Virus record (IMG/VR): IMGVR_UViG_3300007346_000239
Coordinates: 1 to 24,030 of that record
Direction: 5' to 3' (one strand)
DNA from: a virus
Length of the DNA stretch: 24,030 bases
How positions within the stretch are numbered: position 1 is the first letter of the stretch; every line of letters starts with the position of its first letter. The notes under the pieces are model-generated. The model had not been told where the DNA came from. It made no database searches and saw only the letters and a list, made by a program, of their open reading frames with translations. Made by a program: the position numbers and the translations under genes. Of this stretch, positions 615 to 23,372 are shown in pieces.

Positions 615-2707
615 CAAGCGCGGAAAAAGAGTGTCTAAAGGCATACAATGGATTTAAAAGAATAAGGGATTTCTCAAAGGAGATTCCAAATTGTGTGTGG
701 GATATGGAGATTAAACTCCCCGCCCCACCAAAAAACCCTGCATCCATAGCAAATTGGGGAGAGACCAAAAAGAAGAGGAAATTCCCATATCACGACAGAG
801 ATTTAATAAAGGAGATAGACAACCTCCCTACGTCAGACCAAAGAAGAAAGTCATTTATTGACGAGGAGTGGAATAGAAGGCAAAACGGATTTTGGTTCTA
901 CAATGGGGATAAGTTAGAATGGATTAACGGACACTACTACATGACACTTCAATATTGGTTAATTCCAATTGAAGACCAAGACGGGGAGTCAGCCAATCCA
1001 AAATTTGTTGATATGCAGAGGGATTTAAACCTCGCTATTTGGTGGTGCAAGCAAGATAAAGATACTACTGGATTAGCTTACCTAGGCTCAAGGAGAAGCG
1101 GCAAAACTGTAATAGGATTATCCAATGGGTATTGGGATACTACAGAAAGGTATAACGCCATTTGCGGCATACAGTCTAAAACAGACCCAGACGCAAAGGG
1201 ATGTCTATTAAAACTCGTAAGCAGTTGGCAGAAGTTGCCACAGTTCTTAAAACCAGTTGACACTGGATACACAACAGTTTCTAGGGAATTATTATTCGCG
1301 GAACCCCAACGAAAAGACTCAAAAGGAAAGGCTAGAGAATATAAGGAGGTTTTGAACTCCAAGATAGTTGCGTTTTCATCAAAGGAAACAGCAATGGACG
1401 GACAACGAACTACTTGGCAATTTCAAGATGAGTTTGGTAAAAGAGAGGACTCAGATGCCGCAAAAACACAAAGGATTACAAAAATATGCTGCGTTGTAAA
1501 CTCAAAAGTAGTTGGATTTGCTTTTTGGGCAACCACTGTGGAGGAGTTAACTAAAGGGGGCGGGGAAGCCGCTAAAATTATATGGAATGATTCTGACATA
1601 AAAAGGAAGAATAAAAACGGAAGAACACCAAGTACAATGTACAGATTATTCTTCCCCGCAGAGTATGGAATGTTTGAGGGGGATGGATTTATAGATGAGT
1701 GGGGTTACTCTGATATGAAAAAAGCTGCCGAATGGATAGATAGGGAGGAAGAGGGACAAGAGGGAGAGGCGTTATTAGACTGGAAAAGAAAATACCCAAG
1801 AAATGTAAACGACTGCTTTTCCGTTCCAAGGTCTAGCAACACCTATAGCCAAAGAAAATTATTTGAGCAATATCTATACAACGAAAGTAAAGCGGGGGTA
1901 GAAGACCCAATTGTAAGAGGAACATTCTATTGGCAGGGGGGAATTAAAGACACCGAAGTAATCTTTAAACCCGACCCCGATGGAAGGTGGTTGGTTGCTT
2001 GGCATCCCCCGCAAGAAGACAGAAACAGATACGAACTAAAAAGTAATCAACGTTGGCCCACAAGAGATTTCTGTAAGACGGGTTGTGACCCGTTCTCCCA
2101 CGCACAAACAGTGGAGAAGGGTTCTGAGGGAGCTTCGGCTACTATTTTAGAAAACCATTGGAAATACCCCAAAATGAAAATGGCTTGGGTATGTACCTAT
2201 CTACACCGCCCCGCACATCCAACAGACTTCTATGAGGACATGATAATGCAATGTGTTTACTACTCCTCACCATTCTTAGCGGAAAATATAAAGTACGACA
2301 TCCTAGAACACTTCCACAGAAGAGGATACGACGGATTCTGCCTTTACAACCCACTAGACCCCGAATGGCAAAAGGCTTGGTTAAAAGGACAAAGAGGACT
2401 AGCCACAACCCACAAAGACGTAAGAGAAGCCCTAATGAGCATAACCCAAGCACACATCATGGACTACATAGGTCACAACGAGGAAGACGACAGTTATGGT
2501 TTCTGTCCATTCAAAGACATCATCGAACAATGGCAAAAGTTTGAGCCTAATAATTGGACACCCTATGACATGGCGGTAGCCACAGGACTAGCTTTAATCG
2601 CCACTAAGAAGCCTAAAAAAGCTATCGAACTAAAGTTTGGGAAGAATGATTGGCTACCAAAATTCAATAATTCTGGAAAGATTAGTAAGATTATTAGAAA
2701 CTTTTAG
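611..2707 (+). CDS. terL: Terminase large subunit (packaging ATPase and headful nuclease)
   Basis: The motor that cuts concatemeric DNA and pumps it into the prohead through the portal. The 698-residue protein has both expected domains. ATPase: Walker A at residues 159-166 (GSRRSGKT), Walker B with catalytic acid near 268-274 (TWQFQDE), and a motif III-like ATT at 307-309. RNase H-like nuclease: likely metal-binding acids D493 (GCDPF), E558 (FLAEN) and D653 (PYDMAVATGLA), the last in the usual C-terminal setting. The long N-terminal region (1-150), rich in Trp and Tyr, resembles that of terminases from crAss-like and related Bacteroidota phages. The start overlaps the upstream stop by four bases. 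A promoter-like box begins one base after the stop codon, so the terL operon ends sharply here. Portal lies 5 kb downstream instead of adjacent because an accessory block intervenes. Confidence 0.95.
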   Translation: MTSAEKECLKAYNGFKRIRDFSKEIPNCVWDMEIKLPAPPKNPASIANWGETKKKRKFPYHDRDLIKEIDNLPTSDQRRKSFIDEEWNRRQNGFWFYNGDKLEWINGHYYMTLQYWLIPIEDQDGESANPKFVDMQRDLNLAIWWCKQDKDTTGLAYLGSRRSGKTVIGLSNGYWDTTERYNAICGIQSKTDPDAKGCLLKLVSSWQKLPQFLKPVDTGYTTVSRELLFAEPQRKDSKGKAREYKEVLNSKIVAFSSKETAMDGQRTTWQFQDEFGKREDSDAAKTQRITKICCVVNSKVVGFAFWATTVEELTKGGGEAAKIIWNDSDIKRKNKNGRTPSTMYRLFFPAEYGMFEGDGFIDEWGYSDMKKAAEWIDREEEGQEGEALLDWKRKYPRNVNDCFSVPRSSNTYSQRKLFEQYLYNESKAGVEDPIVRGTFYWQGGIKDTEVIFKPDPDGRWLVAWHPPQEDRNRYELKSNQRWPTRDFCKTGCDPFSHAQTVEKGSEGASATILENHWKYPKMKMAWVCTYLHRPAHPTDFYEDMIMQCVYYSSPFLAENIKYDILEHFHRRGYDGFCLYNPLDPEWQKAWLKGQRGLATTHKDVREALMSITQAHIMDYIGHNEEDDSYGFCPFKDIIEQWQKFEPNNWTPYDMAVATGLALIATKKPKKAIELKFGKNDWLPKFNNSGKISKIIRNF

Positions 2708-2715
2708 TATTTTTG
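2702..2715 (+). promoter_or_regulatory. Promoter-like box (TATTTTTG) abutting the terL stop
   Basis: TTTTAGTATTTTTG resembles TTTTACTATCTTTG, found ahead of other elements in the window. The -7 box TATTTTTG at 2708-2715 fits the Bacteroidota consensus TAnnTTTG. It is followed after four bases by AAATCAACA, the left arm of a stem-loop, just as at 23273-23293. No open reading frame begins within a few bases, so any transcript would start into the hairpin. Confidence 0.4.
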
Positions 2716-2719
2716 CGGT

Positions 2720-2772
2720 AAATCAACACTCAGCTAAAGCATCGTTTTAATGTGCTTTAGTAATGTTGATTT
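2720..2772 (+). repeat. Promoter-linked stem-loop element, copy 1
   Basis: A two-part stem. AAATCAACA (2720-2728) pairs with TGTTGATTT (2764-2772), and CTAAAGCA (2734-2741) pairs with TGCTTTAG (2753-2760). The arms are separated by asymmetric bulges of 5 and 3 bases and the loop is TCGTTTTAATG. The right arm runs into a T-rich tract, so the RNA could act as an intrinsic terminator after terL. The same architecture recurs at 7655, 14531 and 23289. The inner stem differs from the 14531 copy by compensatory changes, while the loop is nearly unchanged. Confidence 0.75.
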
Positions 2773-2785
2773 TTTACTATCTTTG
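2771..2785 (+). promoter_or_regulatory. Accessory-class promoter for the 2790-3521 gene set
   Basis: TTTTTACTATCTTTG directly follows the stem-loop. The -7 box TATCTTTG (2778-2785) matches TAnnTTTG and lies four bases before the ATG at 2790, so transcription should begin at or next to the start codon. A TTTAG about 17 bases upstream could serve as a -33 element. Confidence 0.75.
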
Positions 2786-2789
2786 TTAA

Positions 2790-3005
2790 ATGATAAAGAG
2801 AAAGGGAGATGTGCTTTGCACAGATGAGTTTGATGTAGTAGCGGGAGAAGTGGCGAACTTAGAAATAAACTTCACAAATTATTGGGGCGTATTACTCGTC
2901 ACTAAACAAGGAAAAGAGTTTCAAGTTCCAACGGAAGAACCTTTAAAAACAAAAGAAGAAGCAATAACCTTTAAAAAACATTTACGAGATGAATACATTT
3001 GGTAG
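2790..3005 (+). CDS. Small accessory protein, unknown function
   Basis: A 71-residue soluble protein with alternating hydrophobic residues (VANLEINF, WGVLLVTKQGKEFQV), which suggests a small beta-sheet fold followed by a C-terminal helix (TKEEAITFKKHLRDEYIW). It is the first gene after a TATCTTTG promoter, with the ATG four bases from the box, so the mRNA is probably leaderless. It overlaps the following lipoprotein gene by 17 bases in another frame, which suggests coupled expression. There is no signal peptide and no known motif. I do not recognise the family; its place at the edge of the accessory block marks it as a moron-type gene. Confidence 0.7.
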   Translation: MIKRKGDVLCTDEFDVVAGEVANLEINFTNYWGVLLVTKQGKEFQVPTEEPLKTKEEAITFKKHLRDEYIW

Positions 3006-3237
3006 CATATTAATTTCACTTTTTATATTCGTTTCTTGTGGAACTGAGGACTTGGGTAGATTTTCTACACCAATTCCACCACCCGATACACCAAAAGATA
3101 CGCTTAGAGACTTATTTGAGCAAATGACTTGCTGTCAATATTGGAACGCTGAAAGGCTAGAGATAGTTACTTGCGTTACTACGGATGGAAGTTGCAGAAT
3201 GTGTGATTCAATTTGCGCTAGAAACCCAGCACCCTAA
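2989..3237 (+). CDS. Small Cys-rich lipoprotein, probably exported
   Basis: An 82-residue protein with a lipoprotein signal peptide: short N-region, hydrophobic stretch at residues 5-15 (GSILISLFIFV) and a lipobox-like FVSC with the lipidated cysteine at C17. The mature part begins CGTEDLG; acidic residues just after the cysteine resemble signals that send Bacteroidota lipoproteins to the cell surface. A Pro-rich linker (PIPPPDTP) precedes a compact segment with C48, C49, C62, C69, C72 and C76, which could form disulfides. Phage-encoded small lipoproteins in other systems, such as T5 Llp, block receptors against superinfection; that role is plausible here but is only inferred. The stop overlaps the next start (TAATG at 3235-3239). 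Confidence 0.75.
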   Translation: MNTFGSILISLFIFVSCGTEDLGRFSTPIPPPDTPKDTLRDLFEQMTCCQYWNAERLEIVTCVTTDGSCRMCDSICARNPAP

Positions 3238-3521
3238 TGAAGAGAAAGTCCATTATAGAAAAATGGCTTCACCAAGATAGGACATTTAAGAAGTCAGTCC
3301 TAGCTGAACTATTTGAGATGTCGCGGGATAGGTACGAAAAGGCACTAGAAACCCCGCATAAATACTTCACAGTATCCGACATAGACAAGATAGCGTCACT
3401 AACTGATAAAGATATAGTAGAGTGTTTCTTCGCGGTATGGAAAAGGCCGTATGCCTTAGTAGCACACGACCTTAAAAAGCTAGAACTTCTTACCGCTATA
3501 GAGCAGATGGGTTTGGAATAA
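3237..3521 (+). CDS. Small helical protein, possibly DNA-binding
   Basis: A 94-residue basic-to-neutral, all-helical protein. Residues 15-50 (TFKKSVLAELFEMSRDRYEKALE, then TVSDIDKIASL) have the spacing of a helix-turn-helix, so a small regulator is possible, but no family is recognised. It is the third gene of the 2790-3521 set, with a one-base overlap to the lipoprotein gene. Its last 26 bases overlap, in antisense, the 3' end of the minus-strand co-chaperonin-like gene. The two operons therefore converge and overlap with no visible terminator between them. Confidence 0.65.
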   Translation: MKRKSIIEKWLHQDRTFKKSVLAELFEMSRDRYEKALETPHKYFTVSDIDKIASLTDKDIVECFFAVWKRPYALVAHDLKKLELLTAIEQMGLE

Positions 3522-4230
3522 CCCCCGCAACGTGACGGGAATTTACATATCTCTTTGTCTTTATAAAGTTGCCATTATCTAACACGATAGCTTTTCCTTT
3601 GTACTTACCATCAACAACCCTGTAAAACTTCTCAGGGTTTTCTCGGTATATTCCGTTTACGATTGTAAATTCTTCACGCGGGGTTATTTCATTGTAGTCG
3701 TTACATAACTTACCATTCTTCTTGTAAATCTTTTCGTGAAGCTGAATGTAGTAAAGTTTCTTCAACCCAATCAAACACTCCCAGTCGATATTCTTTTCGT
3801 ACTCAATCATATCCCCCTTCTTGAACCCCCTAATGTCTGAGGAAAGAACCTTACCCATTGTAACGGGGTTTTTTGGGTCGTCAGGTATAATCAGCCACTC
3901 CGACTTTATTTTGTCGCTTATAGGCTCTACAATAAGGCAATTGAACGCCTTTTGCCTCTTACCCCACGCAACTATCAAATCAGGTTCGCAAATGTAGTAA
4001 TCAACCCCATCTATTTTAGCATGATCGTCAATCGCTTGGTAGTTCACATAGACTACTTCTCCGATAGGGATTTTAAAACCTTCAGGAGCCACTTCAAGAA
4101 CCCCGCGATAAGGAAGGCTTTCATAAATCGAACCCTCCGCTACTGGATTATACAACTTTACAGAATCCCCAACGGTTCTGTTTTCATCAAGGTCAACCCT
4201 TATCCAAACTCTTTTGTGTGATTTTAACAT
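3496..4230 (-). CDS. Tandem GroES-like co-chaperonin
   Basis: A 244-residue protein that appears to contain two GroES (Cpn10) folds. Domain 1, residues ~5-90: RVWIRVDLDE, a gap like the mobile loop, then YRGVLEVAPEGFKIPIGEVV and KIDGVDYYICEPDLIVAW. These parallel GroES RGEVLAVG, VKVGD and the KIDxxEYLIxxESDILA end. Domain 2, residues ~96-169: FNCLIVEPISDKIKSEWLIIP, VTMGKVLSSDI, FKKGDMIEY and LKKLYYIQLHEKIY. This parallels the GroES LIVKP...GIIIP mobile loop, the G-V block and the VKxGD block. Residues 170-244 are an extra tail of unknown fold. Phage co-chaperonins (T4 gp31 type) partner host GroEL to fold capsid proteins. The gene is last in a minus-strand operon after two glycosyltransferase genes, overlapping the upstream one by one base. 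The assignment is by pattern only. Confidence 0.65.
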   Translation of the reverse strand: MLKSHKRVWIRVDLDENRTVGDSVKLYNPVAEGSIYESLPYRGVLEVAPEGFKIPIGEVVYVNYQAIDDHAKIDGVDYYICEPDLIVAWGKRQKAFNCLIVEPISDKIKSEWLIIPDDPKNPVTMGKVLSSDIRGFKKGDMIEYEKNIDWECLIGLKKLYYIQLHEKIYKKNGKLCNDYNEITPREEFTIVNGIYRENPEKFYRVVDGKYKGKAIVLDNGNFIKTKRYVNSRHVAGVIPNPSAL

Positions 4231-4808
4231 TAGTTTTTAGTCATTAAAATTTTAGGTATTCTGATAAACTTCAAGTTAGGAACTTGCTTAATTAACTCCT
4301 CAACAAATATACCATCAGCTACATACTGTTTCCACATATCGTCAGCTAAAACAACCTTCTTAGCCACTTCACTTCTTATAGAGTAACTCCCCCAATCCAT
4401 TTTACTTATTCTAGGTTGGGTTATGGCGTACATAGTTTGGTATCCAAATATATGATGTGAAAAATCCCAATGCACAAAGTCAGCTTTCTCCCCGCATTCA
4501 ATAACCTCTTGAATAAGGGTTGGCGCATAGTAGTCTTCCACTGAAGTATTGATGAGCATAACACCATCAGGCAAACCATTCTCAATGTAATCCTTTCTGT
4601 TTAACGCCCCCCAAAATTCGGTATTAGTGGGGGTAATGGTAACTGAAATCCTTTCATCATCCAAAACAATGTCATTAGCAGATGCATCCCCATTGGAGCA
4701 AATAATAAGTTTCCAATTTGGGTTTGTCTGCATTTTAAGTGAATGTATAAGCGTTTGACATTTTTCTAACTGCTTATAGTAAGTGGCAAAAATAATTACT
4801 TCTCTCAT
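4230..4808 (-). CDS. Glycosyltransferase, GT-A (family 2-like), short
   Basis: A 192-residue protein with the N-terminal Rossmann-like pattern of GT-A enzymes: beta strand MREVIIFATYY, helix KCQTLIHSLKMQTNPNW, then KLIICSNGDAS. A strand-loop (GVMLINTSVEDYYAP, residues ~80-95) lies where the metal-binding DXD normally sits. Here the motif is not a clean DXD (NTSVED), so metal binding or activity may be altered. It is shorter than typical GT2 enzymes (~250-300 residues). It overlaps the upstream glycosyltransferase gene by four bases and the downstream co-chaperonin-like gene by one base, forming a tight operon. Possible roles are modification of phage DNA, the virion or host surface glycans; the sequence does not decide which. 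Confidence 0.7.
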   Translation of the reverse strand: MREVIIFATYYKQLEKCQTLIHSLKMQTNPNWKLIICSNGDASANDIVLDDERISVTITPTNTEFWGALNRKDYIENGLPDGVMLINTSVEDYYAPTLIQEVIECGEKADFVHWDFSHHIFGYQTMYAITQPRISKMDWGSYSIRSEVAKKVVLADDMWKQYVADGIFVEELIKQVPNLKFIRIPKILMTKN

Positions 4809-5749
4809 TTATTTAGTATTTCAGTGTAAATTTCTCTTCTCCTTTTGTTAAGGTTACGAACATCCCAAGGCTGAACTAATTTAAAAAGCTCCTCCCCGCG
4901 TTGCGTTGCCTCCTCCATTGTGTACGATTCTATTCTCTCCTTCCAACTTTCCCCCACTTTGATTCTATCTATCACAGGGTAGAACTCAGGATGTCTATTA
5001 TAAGGCTCTGTATCTGAAACGATTATAGCCTTCTTCTTAAACCCCGACTCCACCACCTTTAAAAATGACTTTGACTGGTTAAATTTATTTGGAACAAGCG
5101 GGGCTAAAGCAACATCAATACAGTTATACTCCCAAGCATATTCATTCCAAGTTTTAAGAAGAGAGTGGTGGGATACATTTAATAAGTTCCTGTACTCCTC
5201 ACAAACAACAAACAAAGGCCGAGTACTAAAGTCGTATTCCATAACCCTAAGATCATCCTCATGCCTAGTAGAACCCAAGTAACCAAATACAGGTTCCTCA
5301 TTTTTCACAGGATAAATTTTCCATTGGTCTTCCTTTGGGTCTATTCCATTTTCGATAATATACCCCCACTTATTATAGTAGTTCCCATAATGCCTTTGTA
5401 GATTCTCGGATGTCGTTGTAAGAGCATCACAAGCCTTTATAGCCTTAGCCACATCGGGTCGCTTCATGTATAGGTCATCCACATCTAAAACAATCTTAGT
5501 CCCCACCTTCTTAAAATGGTTTATAAGATTTGGGAAATCATTCGGGATAGTCAACCCAACGGAATATTGAACTAAATCAAAATGGTATTTAAAAACAAGT
5601 TCCCTTATTTTATCATAATGCCTCATTTCAACAATAGCTACAAAATCTTCCCCAAACTCATCACCACTATCCATCCAAGTTCTATGTGGCACAAGCTGCC
5701 TGTGGTAGTACAAACCAGACTCCGTACTTTGTAATACAAGTATCTTCAT
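4805..5749 (-). CDS. Glycosyltransferase, GT-B (group 1-like)
   Basis: A 314-residue protein with a GT-B outline. The N-terminal domain starts with strand MKILVLQSTE and contains KIVLDVDDL (residues ~85-93), characteristic of this glycosyltransferase group, followed by CDALTTTSENLQRHYG and IIENGID. The second domain has PVFGYLGSTRHEDDL (~153-167) and a donor-site-like KVVESGFKKKAIIVSD near 230-245 with the expected Glu. It is the first gene of the minus-strand operon and starts four bases downstream of a TATTTTTG box. Phage group-1 enzymes often glucosylate DNA, virion proteins or lipopolysaccharide; acceptor and sugar donor cannot be read from sequence. The neighbouring co-chaperonin may be a passenger or may help fold the modified product. 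Confidence 0.75.
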   Translation of the reverse strand: MKILVLQSTESGLYYHRQLVPHRTWMDSGDEFGEDFVAIVEMRHYDKIRELVFKYHFDLVQYSVGLTIPNDFPNLINHFKKVGTKIVLDVDDLYMKRPDVAKAIKACDALTTTSENLQRHYGNYYNKWGYIIENGIDPKEDQWKIYPVKNEEPVFGYLGSTRHEDDLRVMEYDFSTRPLFVVCEEYRNLLNVSHHSLLKTWNEYAWEYNCIDVALAPLVPNKFNQSKSFLKVVESGFKKKAIIVSDTEPYNRHPEFYPVIDRIKVGESWKERIESYTMEEATQRGEELFKLVQPWDVRNLNKRRREIYTEILNK

Positions 5750-5753
5750 GTTA

Positions 5754-5761
5754 CAAAAATA
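5754..5761 (-). promoter_or_regulatory. Promoter -7 box for the minus-strand glycosyltransferase operon
   Basis: Read on the minus strand, TATTTTTG fits TAnnTTTG and lies four bases (TAAC) before the ATG at 5749. This is the same 4-base spacing seen at five genes in the window, implying a leaderless mRNA. It lies just after a dyad (5772-5795) and an A/T tract. Confidence 0.6.
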
Positions 5762-5771
5762 AAAAAAAATT

Positions 5772-5795
5772 CTACTAAGTCTATAGATTTAGTAG
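5772..5795. promoter_or_regulatory. Dyad between divergent promoters
   Basis: CTACTAAGTC (5772-5781), loop TATA, GATTTAGTAG (5786-5795): a 10-bp stem with one G-T wobble. It sits between the minus-strand promoter (5754-5761) and the plus-strand promoter (5805-5812). Read on the minus strand it is followed by a run of nine T, like an intrinsic terminator that would insulate the glycosyltransferase promoter. It could equally be an operator shared by both divergent promoters. Confidence 0.6.
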
Positions 5796-5804
5796 GAATT
5801 TATT

Positions 5805-5812
5805 TATATTTG
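5805..5812 (+). promoter_or_regulatory. Promoter -7 box TATATTTG for the 5826 gene pair
   Basis: TATATTTG fits TAnnTTTG and lies 13 bases before the ATG at 5826, leaving a very short leader. It is divergent from the glycosyltransferase operon promoter. No TTTTACAAA element is present at the late-promoter distance. Confidence 0.55.
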
Positions 5813-5825
5813 TATAAAATTAAGT

Positions 5826-6086
5826 ATGGAGTCACAAGATTTTATAAATGATGTGTACGAAGTTTCGATAGGTAACGACCCTAAAGAAGACTTCCGATTT
5901 ACTGTTGGCAGAAACCACAGGGTGAAGGATGGAGTTATTACCATAACCGAAATAGTTTACGACCAAAACGCTTTCCATTCCTTTGGTATTAGGCGGTGCG
6001 AGATTTGGGCGAAGAAAGAAAGCGGGGAGGAATTTCTTTGGAAAGTAAGCGAGAACCAACCATTAATGATAACAAGCAAGGTATGA
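5826..6086 (+). CDS. Small accessory protein, unknown function
   Basis: An 86-residue soluble protein. Alternating residues (DVYEVSI, DFRFTVGRN, GVITITEIVYD) suggest a small beta-sandwich or barrel, followed by RRCEIWAKKESGEEFLWKV. It has no signal peptide or catalytic motif and I do not recognise the family. It follows a TATATTTG promoter and overlaps the next gene by four bases (ATGA at 6083-6086), so the two are probably co-translated. The location, in a block of short genes with their own promoters, suggests an early-acting or host-interaction gene. Confidence 0.65.
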   Translation: MESQDFINDVYEVSIGNDPKEDFRFTVGRNHRVKDGVITITEIVYDQNAFHSFGIRRCEIWAKKESGEEFLWKVSENQPLMITSKV

Positions 6087-6409
6087 AAGAGTTTAAGGCA
6101 AAGCCATTCGTAGAGCATATTGAAGAGTTAAGCGGAACCCCGCAAAAGAAGGTTGAAAAACTAGTTTCAATATACTCGGTGTACTCACAACCACTAACCG
6201 AGAAGAACTTCAAAAAGTACCTTTGGACAAAGGACGATGATTTTGAGATACACGATGGGGAGGGTGTGCTTTTCTATTGGGAGCATCCAATACTAACGCG
6301 ACCCGTTACTATTGACCAATTCATATCAGTCTCAGCATCACTAGGGAGAGACTTGTTTTGGCACGAAGACGTGTACTTGAACAACCTAAACATCACTGTA
6401 AAATATTAG
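6083..6409 (+). CDS. Small accessory protein, unknown function
   Basis: A 108-residue protein when started at the ATG at 6083, which overlaps the upstream stop as ATGA. The frame stays open further upstream, to an ATG at 5996, but that start would lie deep inside the preceding gene, so 6083 is preferred. Residues 1-50 look helical and basic (EHIEELSGTPQKKVEKLVSIY); the rest contains many aromatic and acidic residues (KKYLWTKDDDFEIHDGEGVLFYWEHP). No recognised motif. It is the second gene of a two-gene transcript. Confidence 0.6.
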   Translation: MKEFKAKPFVEHIEELSGTPQKKVEKLVSIYSVYSQPLTEKNFKKYLWTKDDDFEIHDGEGVLFYWEHPILTRPVTIDQFISVSASLGRDLFWHEDVYLNNLNITVKY

Positions 6410-6441
6410 CAAAAACCCCGCATAAACACCACTTATATTTG
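6405..6441 (+). promoter_or_regulatory. Promoter for the 6446 gene (degenerate late-like)
   Basis: The box TATATTTG (6434-6441) lies four bases before the ATG at 6446. Exactly 20 bases upstream is ATTAGCAAA (6405-6413), which matches TTTTACAAA at six of nine positions. This may be a weak member of the late promoter class or a chance match. Confidence 0.5.
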
Positions 6442-6445
6442 ACTC

Positions 6446-6622
6446 ATGGAAGAAAGAATAGCAGAGTTAAAATCTAAACTAACTGGTAATTTTCTAAAAG
6501 ACCTTGACATCCAACAGGAGATATGGGAACTAAAGAAAATAATGGCAGCAGAAAAAGGCGAACTCAGCGAACTCTTCGAGAATTATGAGGAAGATGAGGA
6601 TTGTCTTTACTGCGGAAGCTAA
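6446..6622 (+). CDS. Very small acidic helical protein with a C-terminal CxxC
   Basis: A 58-residue protein: MEERIAELKSKLTGNF, then a helical segment with LDIQQEIWELKKIMAAEKG, and an acidic tail ending in EDCLYCGS. The two cysteines (C53, C56) form a CxxC that could bind metal or pair with another chain. The ATG is four bases downstream of a TATATTTG box, and the stop overlaps the next start (TAATG at 6620-6624). This, together with phage-like codon use (many AAA, GAA, AGA), supports a real gene despite its size. Function unknown; small acidic phage proteins are often inhibitors of host or defence enzymes, but nothing here proves that. Confidence 0.65.
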   Translation: MEERIAELKSKLTGNFLKDLDIQQEIWELKKIMAAEKGELSELFENYEEDEDCLYCGS

Positions 6623-6789
6623 TGGCAGAGATAGAAATAAACTTTGATAAATACGGAGACAAGTTTGTAAGGTATGAAGTCCATGATGACATCCTTGAAT
6701 ACATTGAGTATTTAGAGCGTTTATTAATACACACAGAAGACGAACTAGAGGCCACTTTAGATTTTTCTCACAAAAGCCACTCAAACTAA
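6622..6789 (+). CDS. Small acidic helical protein, unknown function
   Basis: A 55-residue protein starting at the ATG at 6622, which overlaps the upstream stop by one base. The frame is open a little further upstream, but the coupled start is more likely. The sequence is acidic and helical (DDILEYIEYLERLLIHTEDELEATLDF), compatible with a short coiled coil or DNA-mimic-like protein. It is the second gene after the 6434 promoter. A new promoter (TATCTTTG at 6801-6808) follows within 20 bases of its stop, ending this transcription unit. Confidence 0.6.
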   Translation: MAEIEINFDKYGDKFVRYEVHDDILEYIEYLERLLIHTEDELEATLDFSHKSHSN

Positions 6790-6794
6790 AATAT

Positions 6795-6808
6795 TTTTAC
6801 TATCTTTG
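6795..6808 (+). promoter_or_regulatory. Accessory-class promoter leading into a structured RNA
   Basis: TTTTTACTATCTTTGTAG: the box TATCTTTG at 6801-6808 matches TAnnTTTG. The promoter and the 30 bases that follow are nearly identical to those at 13861-13898, down to AAATCAACGG. The expected transcription start is near 6811-6815, inside the shared block. Confidence 0.75.
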
Positions 6809-6811
6809 TAG

Positions 6812-6956
6812 GAAATCAACGGGCATGGCTAAAAATAGTTGCGAGTATTCAGTTGGAAATAATAATGGTAGAAAATATAATTTGCTTGGGCGTTTCCGTT
6901 TTTGGTTAACGTTATGTAAACAATTGTTTTTAGGCGTTGTTGGCACACGTTTTTTT
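6812..6956 (+). ncRNA. Candidate structured RNA A, upstream of the HEPN-motif gene
   Basis: About 145 nt from a TATCTTTG promoter to a run of seven T (6950-6956). The ends pair: CAAC (6817-6820) with GTTG (6936-6939), and CTAAAAA (6829-6835) with TTTTTAG (6927-6933), separated by an asymmetric internal loop. The first ~30 nt and the last ~35 nt resemble candidate RNA B (13879-14026), while the middles are unrelated. In B the pairs differ but are kept, which favours RNA over protein coding. An alternative reading is that the ATG at 6825 begins a 62-residue N-terminal extension of the downstream protein; the CGT arginine codons there, rare in the downstream gene, argue mildly against this. No known RNA family is recognised. 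Confidence 0.45.
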
Positions 6957-7010
6957 AGTTCCCCTTCTATTGTCAAAAGTAATTCTTCATTTTTGGAAAA
7001 AGTAGAAAGT

Positions 7011-7625
7011 ATGCCTATTCCCGATGAAGCTTGGTTCTGTACCACTATAGACAATGAAGTTATTAGGTTTTCTGATTTAAGGTCTCTATTAAAGTCTGGT
7101 AATTCAGCTAGGTTAAGGGAAATCTTAAAGGATAGACTAGATAACATCTTAATAGCCCCATCAAAGAGACTTAATGATTCTAAACACGCATTTGCGTTGA
7201 TGATACTCACTTGCACAGGTATAGAGTCATTAGGGTCTATTTTTTACCCAAGTAATGTACATTCAGAACCATTTAGGGAAGTTTGTGGTAAAATGCACCA
7301 AGTCCTACCTAGAAAACTAACCAAAAAGTTCAAAGAGTCTTTATCGGCTAGGTGGTCAAACAATGAAGAAATTGATAAAATAACTCACTACTCTTATTTA
7401 ATCTATAGGTACATGAGAAATGAGTTATCTCATAATCTTGTTTCTAAAGGGGTATATTTATCATACGAAGAAACGGACACAATTATTGTTAATCAGGATG
7501 AAGGGTATTTAATTGTCAACCCAAGGTGGTTTTGGTTAAAGTTTGAACAGTTGTATCAAAAGCTACTTACATCCAACGACAGAGAAACTCAAATGATTCG
7601 TTATTTTGAGTCTATTGTTAAGTAG
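7011..7625 (+). CDS. HEPN-motif protein (possible RNase or abortive-infection factor)
   Basis: A 204-residue protein from the ATG at 7011; an in-frame ATG at 6825 would add 62 residues but would read through candidate RNA A. Predicted all-helical. Near the C-terminal third, a helix YLIYRYMRNELSHNLVSKG carries R136-N-E-L-S-H141, matching the HEPN nuclease signature R-[N/D/H]-x3-H in its usual context (aromatic helix, then a turn). HEPN domains are mostly RNA-cleaving enzymes found in toxin-antitoxin, abortive-infection and CRISPR effectors. In a phage it could be a host-shutoff or superinfection-exclusion gene. It stands alone between an RNA-like element upstream and a stem-loop copy downstream (7655), which gives it a cassette-like setting. 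The HEPN call rests on one motif and predicted helicity. Confidence 0.6.
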   Translation: MPIPDEAWFCTTIDNEVIRFSDLRSLLKSGNSARLREILKDRLDNILIAPSKRLNDSKHAFALMILTCTGIESLGSIFYPSNVHSEPFREVCGKMHQVLPRKLTKKFKESLSARWSNNEEIDKITHYSYLIYRYMRNELSHNLVSKGVYLSYEETDTIIVNQDEGYLIVNPRWFWLKFEQLYQKLLTSNDRETQMIRYFESIVK

Positions 7626-7654
7626 ATGTTCGTTTGTTTATTTTTAATGTGTGC

Positions 7655-7711
7655 CAACACGCGGCTAAAGTGCGTTTCAATGCATTTTTAGCCAATGTTG
7701 ATTTTACAAAT
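7655..7711 (+). repeat. Stem-loop element, copy 2 (57 bp identical to 23289-23345)
   Basis: CAACA (7655-7659) pairs with TGTTG (7696-7700), and GGCTAAA (7663-7669) with TTTAGCC (7687-7693), with an inner GTGC/GCAT and loop GTTTCAAT. It is identical over 57 bases to the element at 23289-23345. Unlike that copy, it has no TATCTTTG box directly upstream. The right arm runs into ATTTTAC, so it may terminate the HEPN-gene transcript, and its tail merges with the -33 element of the portal promoter. Confidence 0.85.
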
Positions 7712-7738
7712 ATTTTGTAATACGGTTTCTCATCTTTG
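7702..7738 (+). promoter_or_regulatory. Late-class promoter for portal
   Basis: TTTTACAAA (7702-7710), exactly 20 bases, then CATCTTTG (7731-7738), one mismatch from TAnnTTTG. The same arrangement with identical spacing precedes scaffold (10370), the tail operon (14887) and the last block (23336). The portal ATG at 7760 lies 21 bases after the box. Confidence 0.75.
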
Positions 7739-7759
7739 CTCCAAATTATATCCTGTACT

Positions 7760-10414: not shown

Positions 10415-10435
10415 TATACTCAATTTAAAACAAAA

Positions 10436-13000: not shown

Positions 13001-13026
13001 ATATACCCCAGTTCCGATTATTTGTG

Positions 13027-13034: not shown

Positions 13035-13038
13035 TATT

Positions 13039-13860
13039 ATGAATAAAGCATACTACATTTACGCATTAGCTGACCCAAGAGATATAAACCATATCCGATA
13101 TGTTGGCTTCACAACACAACCTCTACACATAAGACTATCAAACCATGTGTGTAATTCAAGAAACAAAGCGGACAAGAATTTTAAAAAAGAGTGGTGGATT
13201 AGGTCTCTTCTAAAAGAGGGATTAAAGCCTTCTATTTATGTGTTAAAGCAACTTACTTCTAGGGAGGAAATGCTAGCCGAAGAGATAAAGCAAATAAAAA
13301 AGGCAAAGAAAGACGGTCACAAAATATTTAACGTACAAGATGGTGGAATATCTGGGTATAAACGAAATCCCAACAGAGACAAGTCCCAACACAAATACAA
13401 AAAAGTAGAAGTACATAAGTACAGCCTAAGCGGAAAATTCATAGAATCTTTTGACAGTTGTAAGGACGCGGCAGAATCAGTGGGATGCAGTAAGTCTCTA
13501 ATAACAATGTCCGCTAAAGATGAAGTTTTTACAAGAGTTGGAGCGGGGTTTTATTGGAGATATTTTAAAGTTGACAAAATAGCCATAAATATTCCACCAC
13601 ACGGGATGACAGGTAAAAAGAGATCAGAAGAATACAAAAGACAAGCAAGCGAGAGGAATAAAAATTATAAGCCCACAGAAGAAGCTAAAGCTAAACAATC
13701 AGAAGCTCAAAAAATTCCAATAAAGCAAATGGACGCCAACGGAAACGTAATTAAAATTTGGCCGAGTCAGAGGGATGTAAGATTAGAATTGGGGATTAAA
13801 CTATACTCTTCAAGGTTCCCAAATAAAATTCAGCATAAATATTTTTGGGATTGGGCGTAA
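13039..13860 (+). CDS. GIY-YIG homing endonuclease with NUMOD modules
   Basis: A 273-residue free-standing homing endonuclease. The start at 13039 is chosen because the TTG further upstream lies within the promoter. N-terminal GIY-YIG domain: YYIYAL (5-10) and YVG (21-23), catalytic Arg probably R32 (IRLSNH), Glu near 81-82. It is followed by DNA-binding modules: VHKYSLSGKFIESFDSCKDA with a CSKSLITMSAK helix and GAGFYWRY (NUMOD1/4-like), HGMTGKKRSEEYKRQASERN (NUMOD3-like), and IKQMDANGNVIKIWPSQRDV (a second NUMOD1-like). Such enzymes cut related phage genomes lacking the gene and spread by repair; a target in or near the capsid gene is likely. The capsid gene itself is intact, so there is no intron. 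The stop codon abuts the next promoter. Confidence 0.85.
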   Translation: MNKAYYIYALADPRDINHIRYVGFTTQPLHIRLSNHVCNSRNKADKNFKKEWWIRSLLKEGLKPSIYVLKQLTSREEMLAEEIKQIKKAKKDGHKIFNVQDGGISGYKRNPNRDKSQHKYKKVEVHKYSLSGKFIESFDSCKDAAESVGCSKSLITMSAKDEVFTRVGAGFYWRYFKVDKIAINIPPHGMTGKKRSEEYKRQASERNKNYKPTEEAKAKQSEAQKIPIKQMDANGNVIKIWPSQRDVRLELGIKLYSSRFPNKIQHKYFWDWA

Positions 13861-13874
13861 TTTTACTATCTTTG
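13861..13874 (+). promoter_or_regulatory. Accessory-class promoter leading into structured RNA B
   Basis: TTTTACTATCTTTG begins at the base after the endonuclease stop; the box TATCTTTG is at 13867-13874. Together with the following block up to GGCTA it matches 6795-6830 with about three differences. No open reading frame of more than a few codons starts nearby, so it appears to drive an RNA. Confidence 0.75.
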
Positions 13875-13878
13875 TAGT

Positions 13879-14026
13879 AAATCAACGGACTTGGCTATGA
13901 AACGTTACGGCTTTTTAGCAGTAACATCATAGGAAGAAAGGTTAGAATATTGAGCGGTTATTTCATTGGTTAGTTTAAACGTAGTAATGTTTTATAGCCC
14001 TTGTTGTGCTTAGTGTTTTTATTTTT
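13879..14026 (+). ncRNA. Candidate structured RNA B, related to RNA A
   Basis: About 148 nt between a TATCTTTG promoter and a T-rich tail. End pairing: CAAC (13883-13886) with GTTG (14003-14006), and GGCTAT (13893-13898) with ATAGCC (13994-13999). An internal hairpin is visible: CTATGA (13895-13900) with TCATAG (13927-13932) and GTTAC (13904-13908) with GTAAC (13921-13925). It shares bases with the terminal stem, so the two folds exclude each other. The ends match RNA A; the middle does not. No long ORF occupies the segment: the ATG at 13897 gives only 11 codons. Function and family unknown. A 5' leader controlling the small gene at 14079 is an alternative. Confidence 0.5.
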
Positions 14027-14078
14027 CTTCTTGTTTCAATTAACCAATAGTCAAGGTAAACATTGGTTGAATTATGTA

Positions 14079-14267
14079 ATGAAATTTGAAGTAACCAATA
14101 GAGAAGAAATTGAAAGTCATTTAGGTAGAGAAATAAATAAGGTAGATGAAGCTCTTATACACCTGTCAATGATTAAACGACAAGGAGTAGTAAATCCAGA
14201 ACTCTTTAATTCTGAAAGTCTTCGTGACGACCTCCATACTTTCTTACAAAGCCAGAGGTGTCTTTAG
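14079..14267 (+). CDS. Small accessory protein, unknown function
   Basis: A 62-residue protein from the ATG at 14079 (MKFEVTNREEIESHLG...). The open frame extends upstream to 14001, but that part lies in the T-rich end of RNA B and would encode an implausible poly-Phe/Leu start. The protein is helical and charged, with KVDEALIHLSMIKRQ as the main helix. No motif is recognised. It overlaps the minus-strand gene at 14206-14481 by 62 bases, tail to tail. Only one of the two may be expressed at a time, or one may be spurious. Confidence 0.5.
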   Translation: MKFEVTNREEIESHLGREINKVDEALIHLSMIKRQGVVNPELFNSESLRDDLHTFLQSQRCL

Positions 14268-14481
14268 GGTTACATTTTTTAAATCCGTAATTATCTTTTA
14301 GTATTTTATAAACGTCCTCATTGTCAGTCCTAAGTAATAGTATAGATTCATTTTCAAAAATTTCAACGTTAAATCCGCCTCTTGTGTAAAGATGAGCATT
14401 AGACGAAATCAACAAGGGGAGTTTATCAAAGACTGTGTCGTAGCCTTCTTTTATTATGTATTCTGCGAAAATGTATTCCAT
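14206..14481 (-). CDS. Small accessory protein on the minus strand, unknown function
   Basis: A 91-residue protein (MEYIFAEYIIKEGYDTVFDKL...). It has an alternating beta pattern in HLYTRGGFNVEIFENESILLLRT, then a helix NEDVYKILKDNYG and a basic tail. No signal peptide or recognised motif. Its 3' end overlaps the plus-strand gene at 14079-14267 by 62 bases. No convincing TAnnTTTG box is seen just upstream of its ATG. Coding is supported by the length of the frame and the ordinary amino-acid composition, but the evidence is moderate. Confidence 0.5.
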   Translation of the reverse strand: MEYIFAEYIIKEGYDTVFDKLPLLISSNAHLYTRGGFNVEIFENESILLLRTDNEDVYKILKDNYGFKKCNPKDTSGFVRKYGGRHEDFQN

Positions 14482-14530
14482 GTTTAATATTTAGTTTAAA
14501 GTTTATTACGGAGTCTTTTTACATTAAGCA

Positions 14531-14576
14531 CAACAACTAGCTAAAGTGTCGTTTCAATGCACTTTAGGTTTTGTTG
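14531..14576 (+). repeat. Promoter-linked stem-loop element, copy 3
   Basis: CAACAA (14531-14536) pairs with TTGTTG (14571-14576), and CTAAAGTG (14541-14548) with CACTTTAG (14560-14567); the loop is TCGTTTCAATG. Compared with the copy at 2720, the last two pairs of the inner stem change from CA/TG to TG/CA with pairing kept. A T tract and a TATCTTTG promoter follow immediately, as in the 2720 copy. Confidence 0.75.
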
Positions 14577-14578
14577 AT

Positions 14579-14593: not shown

Positions 14594-14611
14594 TTTAAAA
14601 TAAACGAAATT

Positions 14612-14869
14612 TTGGAATTAAAAACACTGATAAAAAACTCAGAAGAAAGGGTTGTCGACTATAAAAAAATGTTAGAGGAAGTCCACAAGGATAAAATCAA
14701 CTTCCCACCTAATAGTGAACTTACAGTTTGGTATAAAACCTTTTTACGGGAAAATAAAAATTCAGAACAACTGTGGCTAAAAGAATTAATTGAAGAGAGG
14801 ACTTACGAAAACGAGGGGCTTAACCCACCATTTTACTATCCTGAATATTGGAGGGAGGGGAAAAATTAA
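14612..14869 (+). CDS. Small accessory protein, unknown function, start uncertain
   Basis: About 85 residues if started at the TTG at 14612. The frame is open from 14546, but the upstream part overlaps the stem-loop and promoter and cannot be in an mRNA made from that promoter. By the 4-6-base spacing seen elsewhere, an ATA at 14600 would be the leaderless start, which is non-standard; the first in-frame ATG after the promoter is at 14669. The protein is helical and charged (LELKTLIKNSEERVVDYKKM, then WLKELIEERTYENEG) with a Pro/Tyr-rich end (PPFYYPEYWREG). Family not recognised. It may be a gene whose start codon has decayed. Confidence 0.5.
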   Translation: MELKTLIKNSEERVVDYKKMLEEVHKDKINFPPNSELTVWYKTFLRENKNSEQLWLKELIEERTYENEGLNPPFYYPEYWREGKN

Positions 14870-14886
14870 AATATTGTTGATTTAGT

Positions 14887-14923
14887 TTTTACAAAAACAC
14901 CCCCAAACCATAAGATACCTTTG
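14887..14923 (+). promoter_or_regulatory. Late-class promoter for the tail operon
   Basis: TTTTACAAA (14887-14895), 20 bases, TACCTTTG (14916-14923), a full match to TAnnTTTG. The ATG at 14944 follows after 20 bases. The bases around the box (AGATACCTTTGCT) nearly match those of the 23365 promoter (AGATACCTTTGCT there too). Confidence 0.8.
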
Positions 14924-14943
14924 CTGATACAAAACATTCAGCA

Positions 14944-16770: not shown

Positions 16771-16773
16771 TTT

Positions 16774-18059: not shown

Positions 18060-18814
18060 TGAACACAATAACATTAGATGAGATAGTAAGGGAGTACATG
18101 ATAGGGGAAGGTAAAGAATCTTTCCACGACTACCCCCGCTATTTACAAATGGCAGCAAGAGGACTAAAGGAAATGAACACAGACGTTTCAGCAGTACCTA
18201 TGGTATCCATATTAGAAGTAGAAGATGGAGGACGTGCCACACTACCACAAGACCTCATTAGACCTATTAGGATAGGTTTTGCGGGGAGTGACGGAAGATT
18301 TATAGAGATATACTCAGATAATACTTTAATTGTAGGAACAGACGGTGTATATAGTTGCGCTACCGATACGGACAACCTTAGCGGACTAGACCAAACAGTT
18401 CCCATATCAAGCAACATAGCAGACCTAAGCGGCTCTTTTAGAAACGGGGAAGTTATAGGAAGGCAGTATGGAAATGTGGGGGGTAGTGTATTTAGTTACA
18501 GAATGGATTGGGCGCGGGGCGTAGCAGAATTTTCATCCAACATATCAGGTCAAGTCGTTTTAGAATATCTAGGCGACCCCCAAAAAGTAGATGGACAATA
18601 CATAGTACACCCATTCTTAATTGAACCGATACTAGCTTGGTTAGCTTATTCTCTAATCAGGTTTAAGAAGTCGGTATCGCCAAACGAAAAAAACTACGCC
18701 TTCCAACAGTACGTTAATAAAAAAAGACACGCTAGAATAAGGTTCGCAAGCGAATCAATAGGCAGCATTATAAACGCATCAAGGAAGACTTTTAACGGTT
18801 CCGCAAAATTCTAG
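18059..18814 (+). CDS. Tail ring / P22 gp4-like connector protein
   Basis: A 251-residue protein. It opens with TLDEIVREYMIGEGKESFHDYPRYLQMAARGLKEMN, a helical head that recurs in P22 tail accessory factor gp4-type and crAss-like ring proteins. A beta domain then carries VPMVSILEV, RATLPQDLIRPIRIGFAGSDGR (a PxDxxxxxRIG pattern typical of this group), and further strands up to ~170. The last ~80 residues are helical and basic (LIRFKKSVSPNEKNYAFQQYVNKKRHARIRF), consistent with docking under the portal. It is followed after one base by the 1,481-residue gene. Confidence 0.7.
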   Translation: MNTITLDEIVREYMIGEGKESFHDYPRYLQMAARGLKEMNTDVSAVPMVSILEVEDGGRATLPQDLIRPIRIGFAGSDGRFIEIYSDNTLIVGTDGVYSCATDTDNLSGLDQTVPISSNIADLSGSFRNGEVIGRQYGNVGGSVFSYRMDWARGVAEFSSNISGQVVLEYLGDPQKVDGQYIVHPFLIEPILAWLAYSLIRFKKSVSPNEKNYAFQQYVNKKRHARIRFASESIGSIINASRKTFNGSAKF

Positions 18815-18815
18815 T

Positions 18816-21800: not shown

Positions 21801-23261
21801 GGAAGGCCAAACGCACTAATAAGGTCAACAAGTAACGCTGAAGATTACTCGGGATTTTTAGGGGAAGTTCAACGCCCCACAACAATAAGATATTCTAAAC
21901 CATTCTTAGCGGCACAAGGTTATAATGGATTGGGTACGTTCTATGACATAGACTTTAAGGACGCAAACCCCGCATTAAGATCAATACAAAAACTCCATAC
22001 AGAAGGAAACAGAATCATAGTACTCCACGAGAACGCAGTAGGTTGGGCAGAAACAGATAGAGTAGTAGCCAAAGTAGGAGAGGGCAATATTGTCATAGAG
22101 GGTAACACCCCACTATCCGACATTATCTACTACCAAGGAAGACACGGAATATCCACAAACCCTGAATCCTTTGCGGCTAATGGAAGCAGAAAATACTTCG
22201 TAGACATAGACCAAGGACAAGTATGTAGACTATCTCAAGACGGTGTTACAGTCATCTCAGATAAGAAGATGAACAAGTACATCAAACAAGTCTTCAGAGA
22301 GATGCAGCAGTCAGAAAATGAGAGTTATATTTTTGGGGCTTACGACAAGCGATTCGATGACTATATTTTAGTATTAAAATGGCCAGCAACTTTTGAACCC
22401 ACAACAGAAGAGTTTACCGTTACAGCAAGCGGGGCAACGCTAAACCTAACAGCAAGCGGATATGATTTCTTTGAAGGAGGAACAGTACCAATAACCCTAG
22501 CAGCTTGTAATAGAGGGGCAACATACTATTCACAAAAGGAATCAACAGCAGCGGTAACAACTGTAAGCGGAAGCAGCATAACGCTATCCATTGCATTAGC
22601 CGATAGGGCGCAAGCAGCAGTGCTAGGTGGGGGCATAGAGTCAGCGTGGTATTTTAGGATTTACCCACTAAACACTAGAACCTTAGTTTTTAACGAGAGG
22701 TTGTCTGTGGATATAAACCGACAAGGTGCGTGGAGTAGCTTTATGAGTTACCCCGCTGAGAACCTTTCTCCTGCGGGAATAGATTTAGTTTCTTTTAGGG
22801 CGGGAAAATTGTACATACACAACGATTACGCAAACCCCGCAAGCTACTATGGAACAGACTACCCAAGCTACATAGATATAGTTTCAAACCCCGCAGCAGA
22901 CGGAACTAAAGTATGGAAAGGAATATCACTAAAAGGAAATTTTACTTCAGGGGATGAGGCTAACATATCTGTACCTATTGCGTCAGAAGATACAACGCGA
23001 GCGGTAGAAGCCGTAGGCGGTGGTATAACCACAAGCAACGAGCAATACTCAACCACACAGAGTTTTGTTTTCAAGGAGGGTCAAATCTACGCCCCCGTAC
23101 TAAGAACAGGCTCAGGAACATCTTATTCTTCTTATATTGAAGGAGACAAAGTAAGGGGATATTGGATAAAGACGAGAATTAAAATTGCAGCGGGGGTTAC
23201 TAAGATTTACAAGATTCTTGAAGCGGCATTTGATTTTATTCCGTCAAATTACAATCAGTAA
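18816..23261 (+). CDS. Very large tail hub / muzzle-like protein
   Basis: A 1,481-residue protein, the largest in the window. The N-terminus (residues ~5-60: RLFDGGMNMDDDETRIEPNQYRYALNIRNGN...GSVGTITNAEGNTLVSV) is the hallmark start of crAss-like 'stabilisation/muzzle' proteins and resembles P22 gp10 / T7 gp12-type tail nozzle proteins. Next come beta-propeller-like segments (KVIGVYDDEPRDRIIYVVY), many Ser/Thr-rich beta insertions, and a C-terminal part with RFDDYILVLKW (~1175), AWSSFMSYPAENLSPAGIDLVSFRAGKLYIHND and WIKTRIKI. It probably forms the distal end of the short tail and contacts the host or receives fibres. It is the last gene of the 14944-23261 operon; a promoter follows within 12 bases of its stop. 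Confidence 0.8.
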   Translation: MVEKRLFDGGMNMDDDETRIEPNQYRYALNIRNGNSEKGSVGTITNAEGNTLVSVTLPSGGNKVIGVYDDEPRDRIIYVVYNTGGLNLILCYNYKAQVVQTVLRDYNNILDLDPNYLITGINVVEGDANSYLLMTDDNGEPKNINIEAGVRTFDTNSANGEYTYRKYIGDWDDLSATSAAADQVYKRGIVYTNSAGGSVDVDFYYRCTADTTNDPTASTSSGLPSEDWEICPSGYVYTVQTVSNVDYISAEWQVTNIVKPPLAYPDMEYGTNGNGYNYLKGSLWQVKYKYVCNDGRESSWSPITPLQNPKYLADSILTKSEYKNDNEANSLTLFLEAPDTNHYKQIKISVRRVLSDKSPDDWYLFDTIKTNDVTNRYYDTSAKIKSQFDNSNTLMPLDQSEVNQLFSWVPDKAQAQGVTSGNRLIYGNFSEGKEYSLDGVYGINKNPPTAEFYERSNPYITLSPLTAQTFNSSVFTTVTAETFFDPVIKNASGVGFKFPASVQVGADYTINVGVKIAASVGNGINIPAQLNFLKILTYSASSTNSSALVDQFVAGINNSKYITSDAFAGTSPYQLLTATNVASGGSSYLKIIPLSGFTSNGFTYNVFIQNVPTSQVAQVKTAIQTFKRGTSQKFAIAYADKYGRLSTAIRHPNLEVTSPWWRDTVYSAITASGVAGNVLSAIGARYAQIQFNHDAPEWAEKFYIVKTLSNGLDYYKTFVTTKAVELANLLRYATTTDPSGYATILNMLQGKYFYRGYIKTSFDDLNYGMVTSATSLGGQELLYIPVTSLQGSPFSYNSLTRTDVNYEFVKGDRVRACYNITPVTASGSANVSDYYTSSFDAEILDYNTQLNCLILRVNDLPNEYVNSASSTVLFASANTAGATNGDIAGLVLEIYRPTKDRGRDFYYEMYAGDVASADVGGVTRYFHNGNFQNQTSAQSAIINLTNGDSYLKPRTYAVVASGGTGALVAASSRSYQFFVEDESYYDKTPSKAWGAGRPNALIRSTSNAEDYSGFLGEVQRPTTIRYSKPFLAAQGYNGLGTFYDIDFKDANPALRSIQKLHTEGNRIIVLHENAVGWAETDRVVAKVGEGNIVIEGNTPLSDIIYYQGRHGISTNPESFAANGSRKYFVDIDQGQVCRLSQDGVTVISDKKMNKYIKQVFREMQQSENESYIFGAYDKRFDDYILVLKWPATFEPTTEEFTVTASGATLNLTASGYDFFEGGTVPITLAACNRGATYYSQKESTAAVTTVSGSSITLSIALADRAQAAVLGGGIESAWYFRIYPLNTRTLVFNERLSVDINRQGAWSSFMSYPAENLSPAGIDLVSFRAGKLYIHNDYANPASYYGTDYPSYIDIVSNPAADGTKVWKGISLKGNFTSGDEANISVPIASEDTTRAVEAVGGGITTSNEQYSTTQSFVFKEGQIYAPVLRTGSGTSYSSYIEGDKVRGYWIKTRIKIAAGVTKIYKILEAAFDFIPSNYNQ

Positions 23262-23266
23262 AGAAA

Positions 23267-23280
23267 TTTTACTATCTTTG
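23267..23280 (+). promoter_or_regulatory. Accessory-class promoter leading into stem-loop copy 4
   Basis: TTTTACTATCTTTG with the box TATCTTTG at 23273-23280, directly followed by TACGAAATCAACA, the left arm of the stem-loop. Any transcript would begin in the hairpin and could end at its T-rich tail, giving an RNA of only ~60 nt. No ORF starts here. Confidence 0.7.
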
Positions 23281-23288
23281 TACGAAAT

Positions 23289-23345
23289 CAACACGCGGCT
23301 AAAGTGCGTTTCAATGCATTTTTAGCCAATGTTGATTTTACAAAT
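23289..23345 (+). repeat. Stem-loop element, copy 4 (57 bp identical to 7655-7711)
   Basis: Same stem and loop as the 7655 copy, base for base over 57 bases: CAACA/TGTTG and GGCTAAA/TTTAGCC, loop GTTTCAAT. Here AAAT stands before CAACA, so the outer stem extends with ATTT on the right. It is preceded by a complete TATCTTTG promoter. Its right edge forms TTTTACAAA of the late promoter for the sulfotransferase-like gene. Confidence 0.85.
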
Positions 23346-23372
23346 TATTCCCAATATCCATAGATACCTTTG
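23336..23372 (+). promoter_or_regulatory. Late-class promoter for the last virion block
   Basis: TTTTACAAA (23336-23344), 20 bases, TACCTTTG (23365-23372), a full match to TAnnTTTG. The ATG at 23378 lies only five bases after the box, so the message is probably leaderless, unlike the other three late promoters. Confidence 0.75.

Follow-up and report, generated by a model that had tools for sequence, protein, structure and literature searches.

Integron attC sites are single-stranded DNA hairpins at which integrases insert gene cassettes. Here we report that four dispersed stem-loops in the late-gene region of a tailed phage of Bacteroidota are, almost certainly, sites of this kind, an identification that follows from their homologues, from their AAC/GTT core, from the arrays formed by the family and from an exchange of box sequences across inserted genes. 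The stretch of DNA analysed (the window) comprises positions 1–24,030 of the IMG/VR record IMGVR_UViG_3300007346_000239 and encodes a phage-type terminase, a portal and an SU10-like capsid protein. Taken as a whole, it is very likely that this phage, for which no integrase is detectable in the available DNA, bears integron attC sites that have captured gene cassettes. Although attC sites in phages are already known, three features are new here: resident sites that are linked to predicted promoters, have a phage-specific box and hold captured cassettes in the late-gene region; the position of these resident sites at rearranged borders of core modules; and an attC subfamily with a conserved CGTTTYAATG loop. 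The papers that we found do not describe attC sites in this setting and form. The sites tie the mosaicism of Bacteroidota phages to a defined recombination machinery, in which a host integron integrase could use border hairpins to load genes into an integrase-less phage. The footprints of insertion can be read in the phage, the subfamily, absent from Rfam, now has a covariance model, and a testable route emerges for gene traffic between bacterial integrons and phages.

The stem-loops and their homologues

The initial annotation had reported four copies of the stem-loop, and all four are present, all on the + strand, with limits set by the covariance model at 2723–2769 (site A), 7654–7701 (site X), 14530–14577 (site C) and 23288–23335 (site D). 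Each adopts the fold proposed for it, with an outer CAAC/GTTG stem, an asymmetric bulge, an inner CTAAAG stem and a CGTTTYAATG apex, and the minimum free energy (MFE) z-scores of the four hairpins range from −2.8 to −4.8 relative to dinucleotide shuffles. The pattern CTAAAGN{2,4}GTTTYAATGN{2,5}TTTAG matches four times in the window, and the reversed control pattern does not match at all. The four are not the only copies, however. A fifth short copy lies 0.8 kb upstream of the window, at 183–230 of contig G001, a 32,554-bp record that is 99.86% identical to the window and contains it as bases 1034–25062; the stem of this copy has decayed (30 bits). There are also two long versions, L1 (6816–6943, +, 128 nt) and L2 (13882–14007, +, 126 nt), which the initial annotation had registered only as promoter-linked sequence; folded on the top strand, they have an outer CAAC/GTTG stem and an inner GGCTA stem like the short copies. 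The window and G001 thus hold seven sites in a single orientation, and element length within this one genome runs from 47 to 128 nt.

Beyond this phage, the pattern search recovered about 20 true relatives from viral contigs, together with several from bacterial assemblies that belong mostly to Bacteroidota. The outer parts of these homologues read TAAC...GTTA or GTTAGGC, which is the architecture of integron attC sites. The covariation check that had been suggested for the stem-loops gave a score of 0.324 for 18 homologues, four of them from the window, well above the shuffled (0.138 ± 0.018) and slid (at most 0.071) controls. Fifty distinct elements from outside the phage scored 0.405, compared with 0.147 ± 0.012 after shuffling; among them most stem pairs vary on both sides somewhere, and the AAC/GTT core is invariant in 49–50 of the 50. 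The swap of CA/TG for TG/CA in the inner stem is real, and the homologues add AA/TT, AG/CT and CC/GG. A covariance-model search, also suggested earlier, was run with R2, a model built only from elements outside this phage. It recovers the four copies with E values of 5e-11 to 6e-8, and because R2 was trained without this phage, chance is excluded. The same model finds the decayed copy at 183–230 of G001 (E 8e-5) and gives scores for L1 (E 0.005) and L2 (E 0.008) that are weak by the model alone. A reading of the promoter-linked sequences at 6801 and 13867 as attI-like half sites was rejected, as R2 and folding identify complete long attC sites there; at 6816 and 13882, where the cassettes landed, the site is a long attC and not an attI.

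The covariation bears out one part of the earlier proposal of selection on a folded RNA or single-stranded DNA, namely a folded single strand, but not an RNA family, the folded form of attC being single-stranded DNA. An Rfam search of the stem-loops returned no relevant match even at E values up to 5, and searches for tRNA and tmRNA found nothing.

The anatomy of the sites agrees with attC in most respects. AAC/GTT boxes are present in all six sites of the window, and the folds and covariation reveal an imperfect palindrome with paired arms, an asymmetric unpaired spacer and an end of variable length. The outer positions of the RYYYAAC/GTTRRRY consensus are only partly matched, the phage R boxes (AAATCAAC/GTTGATT) deviating outside AAC/GTT. 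In attC sites, two extrahelical bases, canonically arranged as T-N6-G, direct recombination to the bottom strand, and the terminal ends are normally variable. Some members of the present family have one extra base in the inner stem, and the 5′ spacer is longer than the 3′ one. The apical decamer CGTTTYAATG stays constant in all loop-type sites (for example, window 2743–2752 and L006:1437–1486) while the stems change completely. Only some of the upstream partner sites found in the hairpin-seeded check described below carry this loop, which is therefore a subfamily marker, and the loop-type subfamily is intermixed with ordinary long attC sites.

The homologues in many other contigs, from phages and from Bacteroidota, are lined up on one strand at intervals of between a few hundred and about 1,400 bp, the layout of cassette arrays. 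In some Bacteroidota assemblies, G025 with its 22 hits among them, the loop-type attC sites are dispersed as single sites or pairs and do not form one array. BLASTN of site D against phages gave chance matches only. A BLASTN search with one array element against 50,697 phage records yielded a sole significant match, Polaribacter phage P12002L (two records; 83% over 54 nt; 51–62 bits with models R1/R2). The matching site, 30007–30057 of KR136259 (E 1e-11 with R1), lies between two annotated DNA methyltransferase genes, a place from which we infer that it is P12002L_attC2. According to Qi et al. (2023, PMC9892861), the virulent phage P12002L has a methyltransferase CALIN, and P12002L_attC2 was recombined with attI1 by IntI1, on the bottom strand only.

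Gene cassettes and their insertion footprint

Four of the window's sites are resident. Site A, found by both R1 and R2 between the terminase gene and the glycosyltransferase module, is without a cassette and has phage-type boxes on both sides (AAATCAAC ... GTTGATTT), with AAC at 2725–2727 and GTT at 2765–2767. Site D, also found by both models, follows the large 4.4-kb gene and precedes an ORF that begins at 23378; it likewise has phage-type boxes on both sides. That small ORF (23378–23851), right after site D, has weak similarity to sulfotransferases (E 0.004, below the cut-off), and in relatives the next conserved gene directly follows the tail gene instead. The other two resident sites, L1 and L2, are occupied.

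L1 combines the phage R″ box AAATCAAC with a cassette R′ box GTTGGCACAC. The cassette that it holds, cassette X (6940–7697, +, 758 bp), was delimited by R″/R′ complementarity, has G^TT at both ends and carries a 204-amino-acid ORF (7011–7625) with no Pfam or PADLOC match. Its own attC, site X, identified with R1, R2 and box matching, has a cassette-type R″ GTGTGCCAAC and a phage-type R′ GTTGATTT. L2, with an 11-bp inner stem on the top strand, similarly combines the phage R″ AAATCAAC with a cassette R′ GTTGTGCTTA and holds cassette C (14004–14573, +, 570 bp), again bounded by G^TT and delimited by R″/R′ complementarity, with ORFs at 14079–14267 (+) and 14206–14481 (−). The ends of this cassette were also seen as a 16-nt inverted repeat, I25, and its attC, site C (R1, R2, box matching), has a cassette-type R″ TAAGCACAAC and a phage-type R′. 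A GIY-YIG/NUMOD1 homing endonuclease gene (13039–13860) immediately precedes the occupied L2, where the capsid and tail modules meet.

Before a cassette is inserted, its attC has complementary boxes R″ and R′, which insertion separates to the two ends of the cassette. The window preserves this arrangement twice: the L1 R′ box GTTGGCACAC (at 6939) is complementary over 10 nt to the R″ box GTGTGCCAAC of site X, and the L2 R′ box GTTGTGCTTA (at 14003) is complementary over 10 nt to the R″ box TAAGCACAAC of site C. Within the 24 kb, neither partner 10-mer has a second occurrence, and each lies exactly where the long attC was predicted to end; the two boxes within one site, by comparison, pair over only 4 nt. 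The outer boxes of both cassette units are the phage's own AAATCAAC and GTTGATTT. Phage-own outer boxes around complementary inner ends therefore place the crossover at G^TT. Crossover between G and TT of GTTRRRY, and an R′ box derived from the downstream cassette, are known properties of attC (PMC3518468).

The rule extends beyond this phage. Over 31 neighbouring site pairs, from the phage and other contigs, the summed match was 240, compared with 119.8 ± 5.6 when boxes were drawn from other contigs, and none of 20,000 such randomizations scored as high. In a check seeded with the hairpins, an 8-nt partner box was present upstream within 3.5 kb in 19 of 29 cases (one of the 19, in L059, being a trivial self-match), where 1.1 would be expected. 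The insertion footprint is the best evidence for attC identity, and together with the box exchange and the arrays it supports the role as a recombination site that the initial annotation had proposed.

Source of the integrase and the promoter-like boxes

A search for tyrosine recombinases (PF00589) gave no match in G001 and 17 further contigs with the hairpin pattern, and 15 relatives and records yielded none above the cut-off; for the phage itself this covers a 32.5-kb contig of an incomplete genome, half of which may be missing. The TIGR02249 integrase occurs in 85 of 296 sampled genomes of the phylum, and loop-type sites are almost absent from the 80 IntI-bearing genomes checked. Metagenome-assembled genomes that hold the hairpins have several tyrosine recombinase fragments, not tied to the hairpins; short C-terminal fragments of this kind occur in the same Bacteroidota assemblies that have scattered loop-type sites. 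With no integrase detectable in the available DNA, one acting in trans is the natural inference, and capture of the cassettes by such an enzyme is very probable.

In the mechanism that we propose, the phage would own A, L1, L2 and D as resident sites, in one orientation, with common boxes AAATCAAC/GTTGATTT and a promoter-like box upstream. The attC strand, exposed as single-stranded DNA during replication or DNA entry, would fold into a hairpin. An integron-type tyrosine recombinase, for which the host is the probable source, would act in trans and fuse this hairpin, presumably through its bottom strand, with a circular cassette, the crossover being at G^TT. Integration just 3′ of the resident site (of 758 bp at L1 and 570 bp at L2) would introduce the cassette's own attC, so that phage boxes come to lie on the outside and cassette boxes on the inside. 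Placed downstream of the promoter-like box, the cassette could then be expressed by read-through.

The sites might instead be degraded remnants, in which case a bacterial integron would have supplied attC sites and cassettes a single time, homologous recombination or duplication of the hairpin would have spread them, and recombination at them would since have ceased. In favour of this reading, the attC bodies of sites X and D and their right flanks (GTTGATTTTACAAAT), at 7655–7714 and 23289–23349, have almost the same sequence over 61 nt, as though it had been copied or converted. One of the two belongs to a cassette although the other is resident; gene conversion could account for the likeness, as could a deletion between R″ boxes. 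The decayed stem at 183–230 of G001 and the lack of a visible integrase also suit remnants. Nevertheless, both cassettes retain perfectly matched 10-nt ends, A, L1, L2 and D retain identical boxes, most sites retain good stems, and a homologue from another virulent phage was active with IntI1 (PMC9892861). We regard the remnant reading as possible but distinctly less probable than continued capture by a trans-acting integrase.

The boxes upstream of the resident sites are part of a repeated 26-nt unit, TTTTACTATCTTTGTANNAAATCAAC, in which a Bacteroidota −7-like box is fused at fixed spacing to the R″ box. The unit lies at 6795–6820 (+) and is repeated at 13861–13886 and 23267–23292, so that L1, L2 and D share it; site A has a diverged version with the same spacing (2702–2727). 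Promoter-like boxes thus stand at a fixed 9-nt spacing before the R″ of all four resident sites, and also directly after sites A and C; the TTTTACTATCTTTGTANNAAATCAAC boxes are predicted promoters on the basis of consensus. A late-promoter-like arrangement, TTTTACAAA-N~20-TACCTTTG or variants of it, recurs downstream of R′ boxes and ahead of structural genes at 7700–7740, 14890–14930 and 23335–23375, and an arrangement of this type likewise lies upstream of the homologous gene in L103. Of 50 elements elsewhere, 3 have a TAnnTTTG box in the 45 nt upstream and 2 have one in the 45 nt downstream, the background frequency being about 2.3% for a stretch of this length. There is thus no promoter enrichment across the wider attC family, and the promoter linkage that had been noticed holds as a trait of this phage, not of the family. 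Among viral contigs, the pattern TATCTTTGTANNAAATCAAC has related matches only in G001, so within that collection the promoter–R″ unit is peculiar to this phage. Contig L097 has a similar arrangement, with TAGTATCTTTG right after R′ at two sites.

Such features could also mark an RNA-level element, either a terminator with a promoter behind it or a 5′-terminal hairpin of transcripts, for which recombination would be secondary. The GTTGAT and short T run after the hairpins make a putative terminator role plausible, and the boxes at 9-nt spacing before four R″ boxes and directly after A and C, like TAGTATCTTTG in L097, would be in keeping with it. An RNA element leaves the invariance of AAC/GTT, the exchange of boxes between neighbours and the cassette arrays without explanation, promoters are not enriched around the 50 other elements, and no Rfam family matches; we consider it improbable.

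Module borders and known systems

The late genes of the phage fall into modules in the order Q (the gene whose 3′ end is window 1–282), terminase, glycosyltransferases, portal–capsid and tail. Relatives with about 60% portal identity have the same modules in other orders: portal–capsid, Q, glycosyltransferases, terminase and tail in the G425 type, and glycosyltransferases, terminase, portal–capsid, Q and tail in the L103 type, with the place of Q in relatives read by eye. The glycosyltransferase module (window 2790–6790) and Q differ in place relative to terminase and portal in L103, L105–L108 and G425, and the relatives in which they are displaced include phages without detectable attC. In the relatives at about 60% portal identity, neither R1 nor R2 found a site. 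Of about 24 gene junctions in the phage studied here, six are module borders, and all five attC loci lie on these (p ~1e-4 for random junctions), in support of the earlier observation that the copies sit at junctions between core and accessory genes; the true weight of this value is lower because few junctions have room for a site. Since the order of modules varies even among relatives that lack a recognized site, shuffling of this kind does not require attC recombination, and the link between the sites and core-module order is suggestive only. We think it rather unlikely that the late region is itself a cassette array, whose attC-bounded terminase, glycosyltransferase, portal–capsid and tail segments, with promoter–attC landing pads, would be shuffled and loaded with host-derived cassettes by a trans-supplied integron integrase.

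The initial annotation had viewed the stem-loops as a novel RNA or promoter-stem-loop family, a counterpart of T4 cassettes; this did not stand, as the elements are of a known kind, integron attC. The T4 'promoter early stem-loop' cassettes combine a stem-loop and a promoter at junctions of variable accessory genes and are thought to be exchanged by homologous recombination. A counterpart of this type, in which accessory genes are shuffled by homologous recombination between hairpin–promoter repeats without a site-specific recombinase, is slightly less probable still than an RNA element: the repeated 26-nt promoter/R″ unit, the near-identical hairpins at module borders and the rearrangement of core modules also between relatives without sites would fit it, but the precise G^TT boundary and the matched cassette ends are not expected from homologous exchange between repeats. 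The likeness to T4 cassettes would be one of setting, a stem-loop and a promoter at junctions where accessory genes vary, whereas a site-specific G^TT crossover is recorded here and the promoter linkage is not family-wide. A self-mobile hairpin element of the IS200/IS605-end, REP or MITE type, unrelated to integrons, is highly improbable, for although dispersed, mostly single copies occur in some Bacteroidota assemblies (22 in one), the arrays, the variable stems around a constant AAC/GTT and the neighbour-box rule fit integron cassettes, and a homologue is a tested attC (PMC9892861).

Comparison with bacterial integron cassettes and their attC sites (59-base elements) reveals the same AAC/GTT boxes, imperfect palindrome and asymmetric spacer, the same G^TT crossover, an R″ that matches the R′ of the preceding site and one small gene per cassette. 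Unlike in bacterial integrons, no intI or attI was found here, most segments between sites hold phage core genes and, in contrast to the variable end of ordinary attC, one subfamily has a conserved apical decamer. P12002L resembles the present phage in having sites of the same attC subfamily by sequence, a Bacteroidota host, no integrase and accessory genes between sites. Whereas P12002L has a methyltransferase CALIN with divergent sites, the phage described here has seven same-oriented sites over 24 kb of late genes, resident sites with promoter-like boxes and a phage-specific R box, and a readable insertion footprint.
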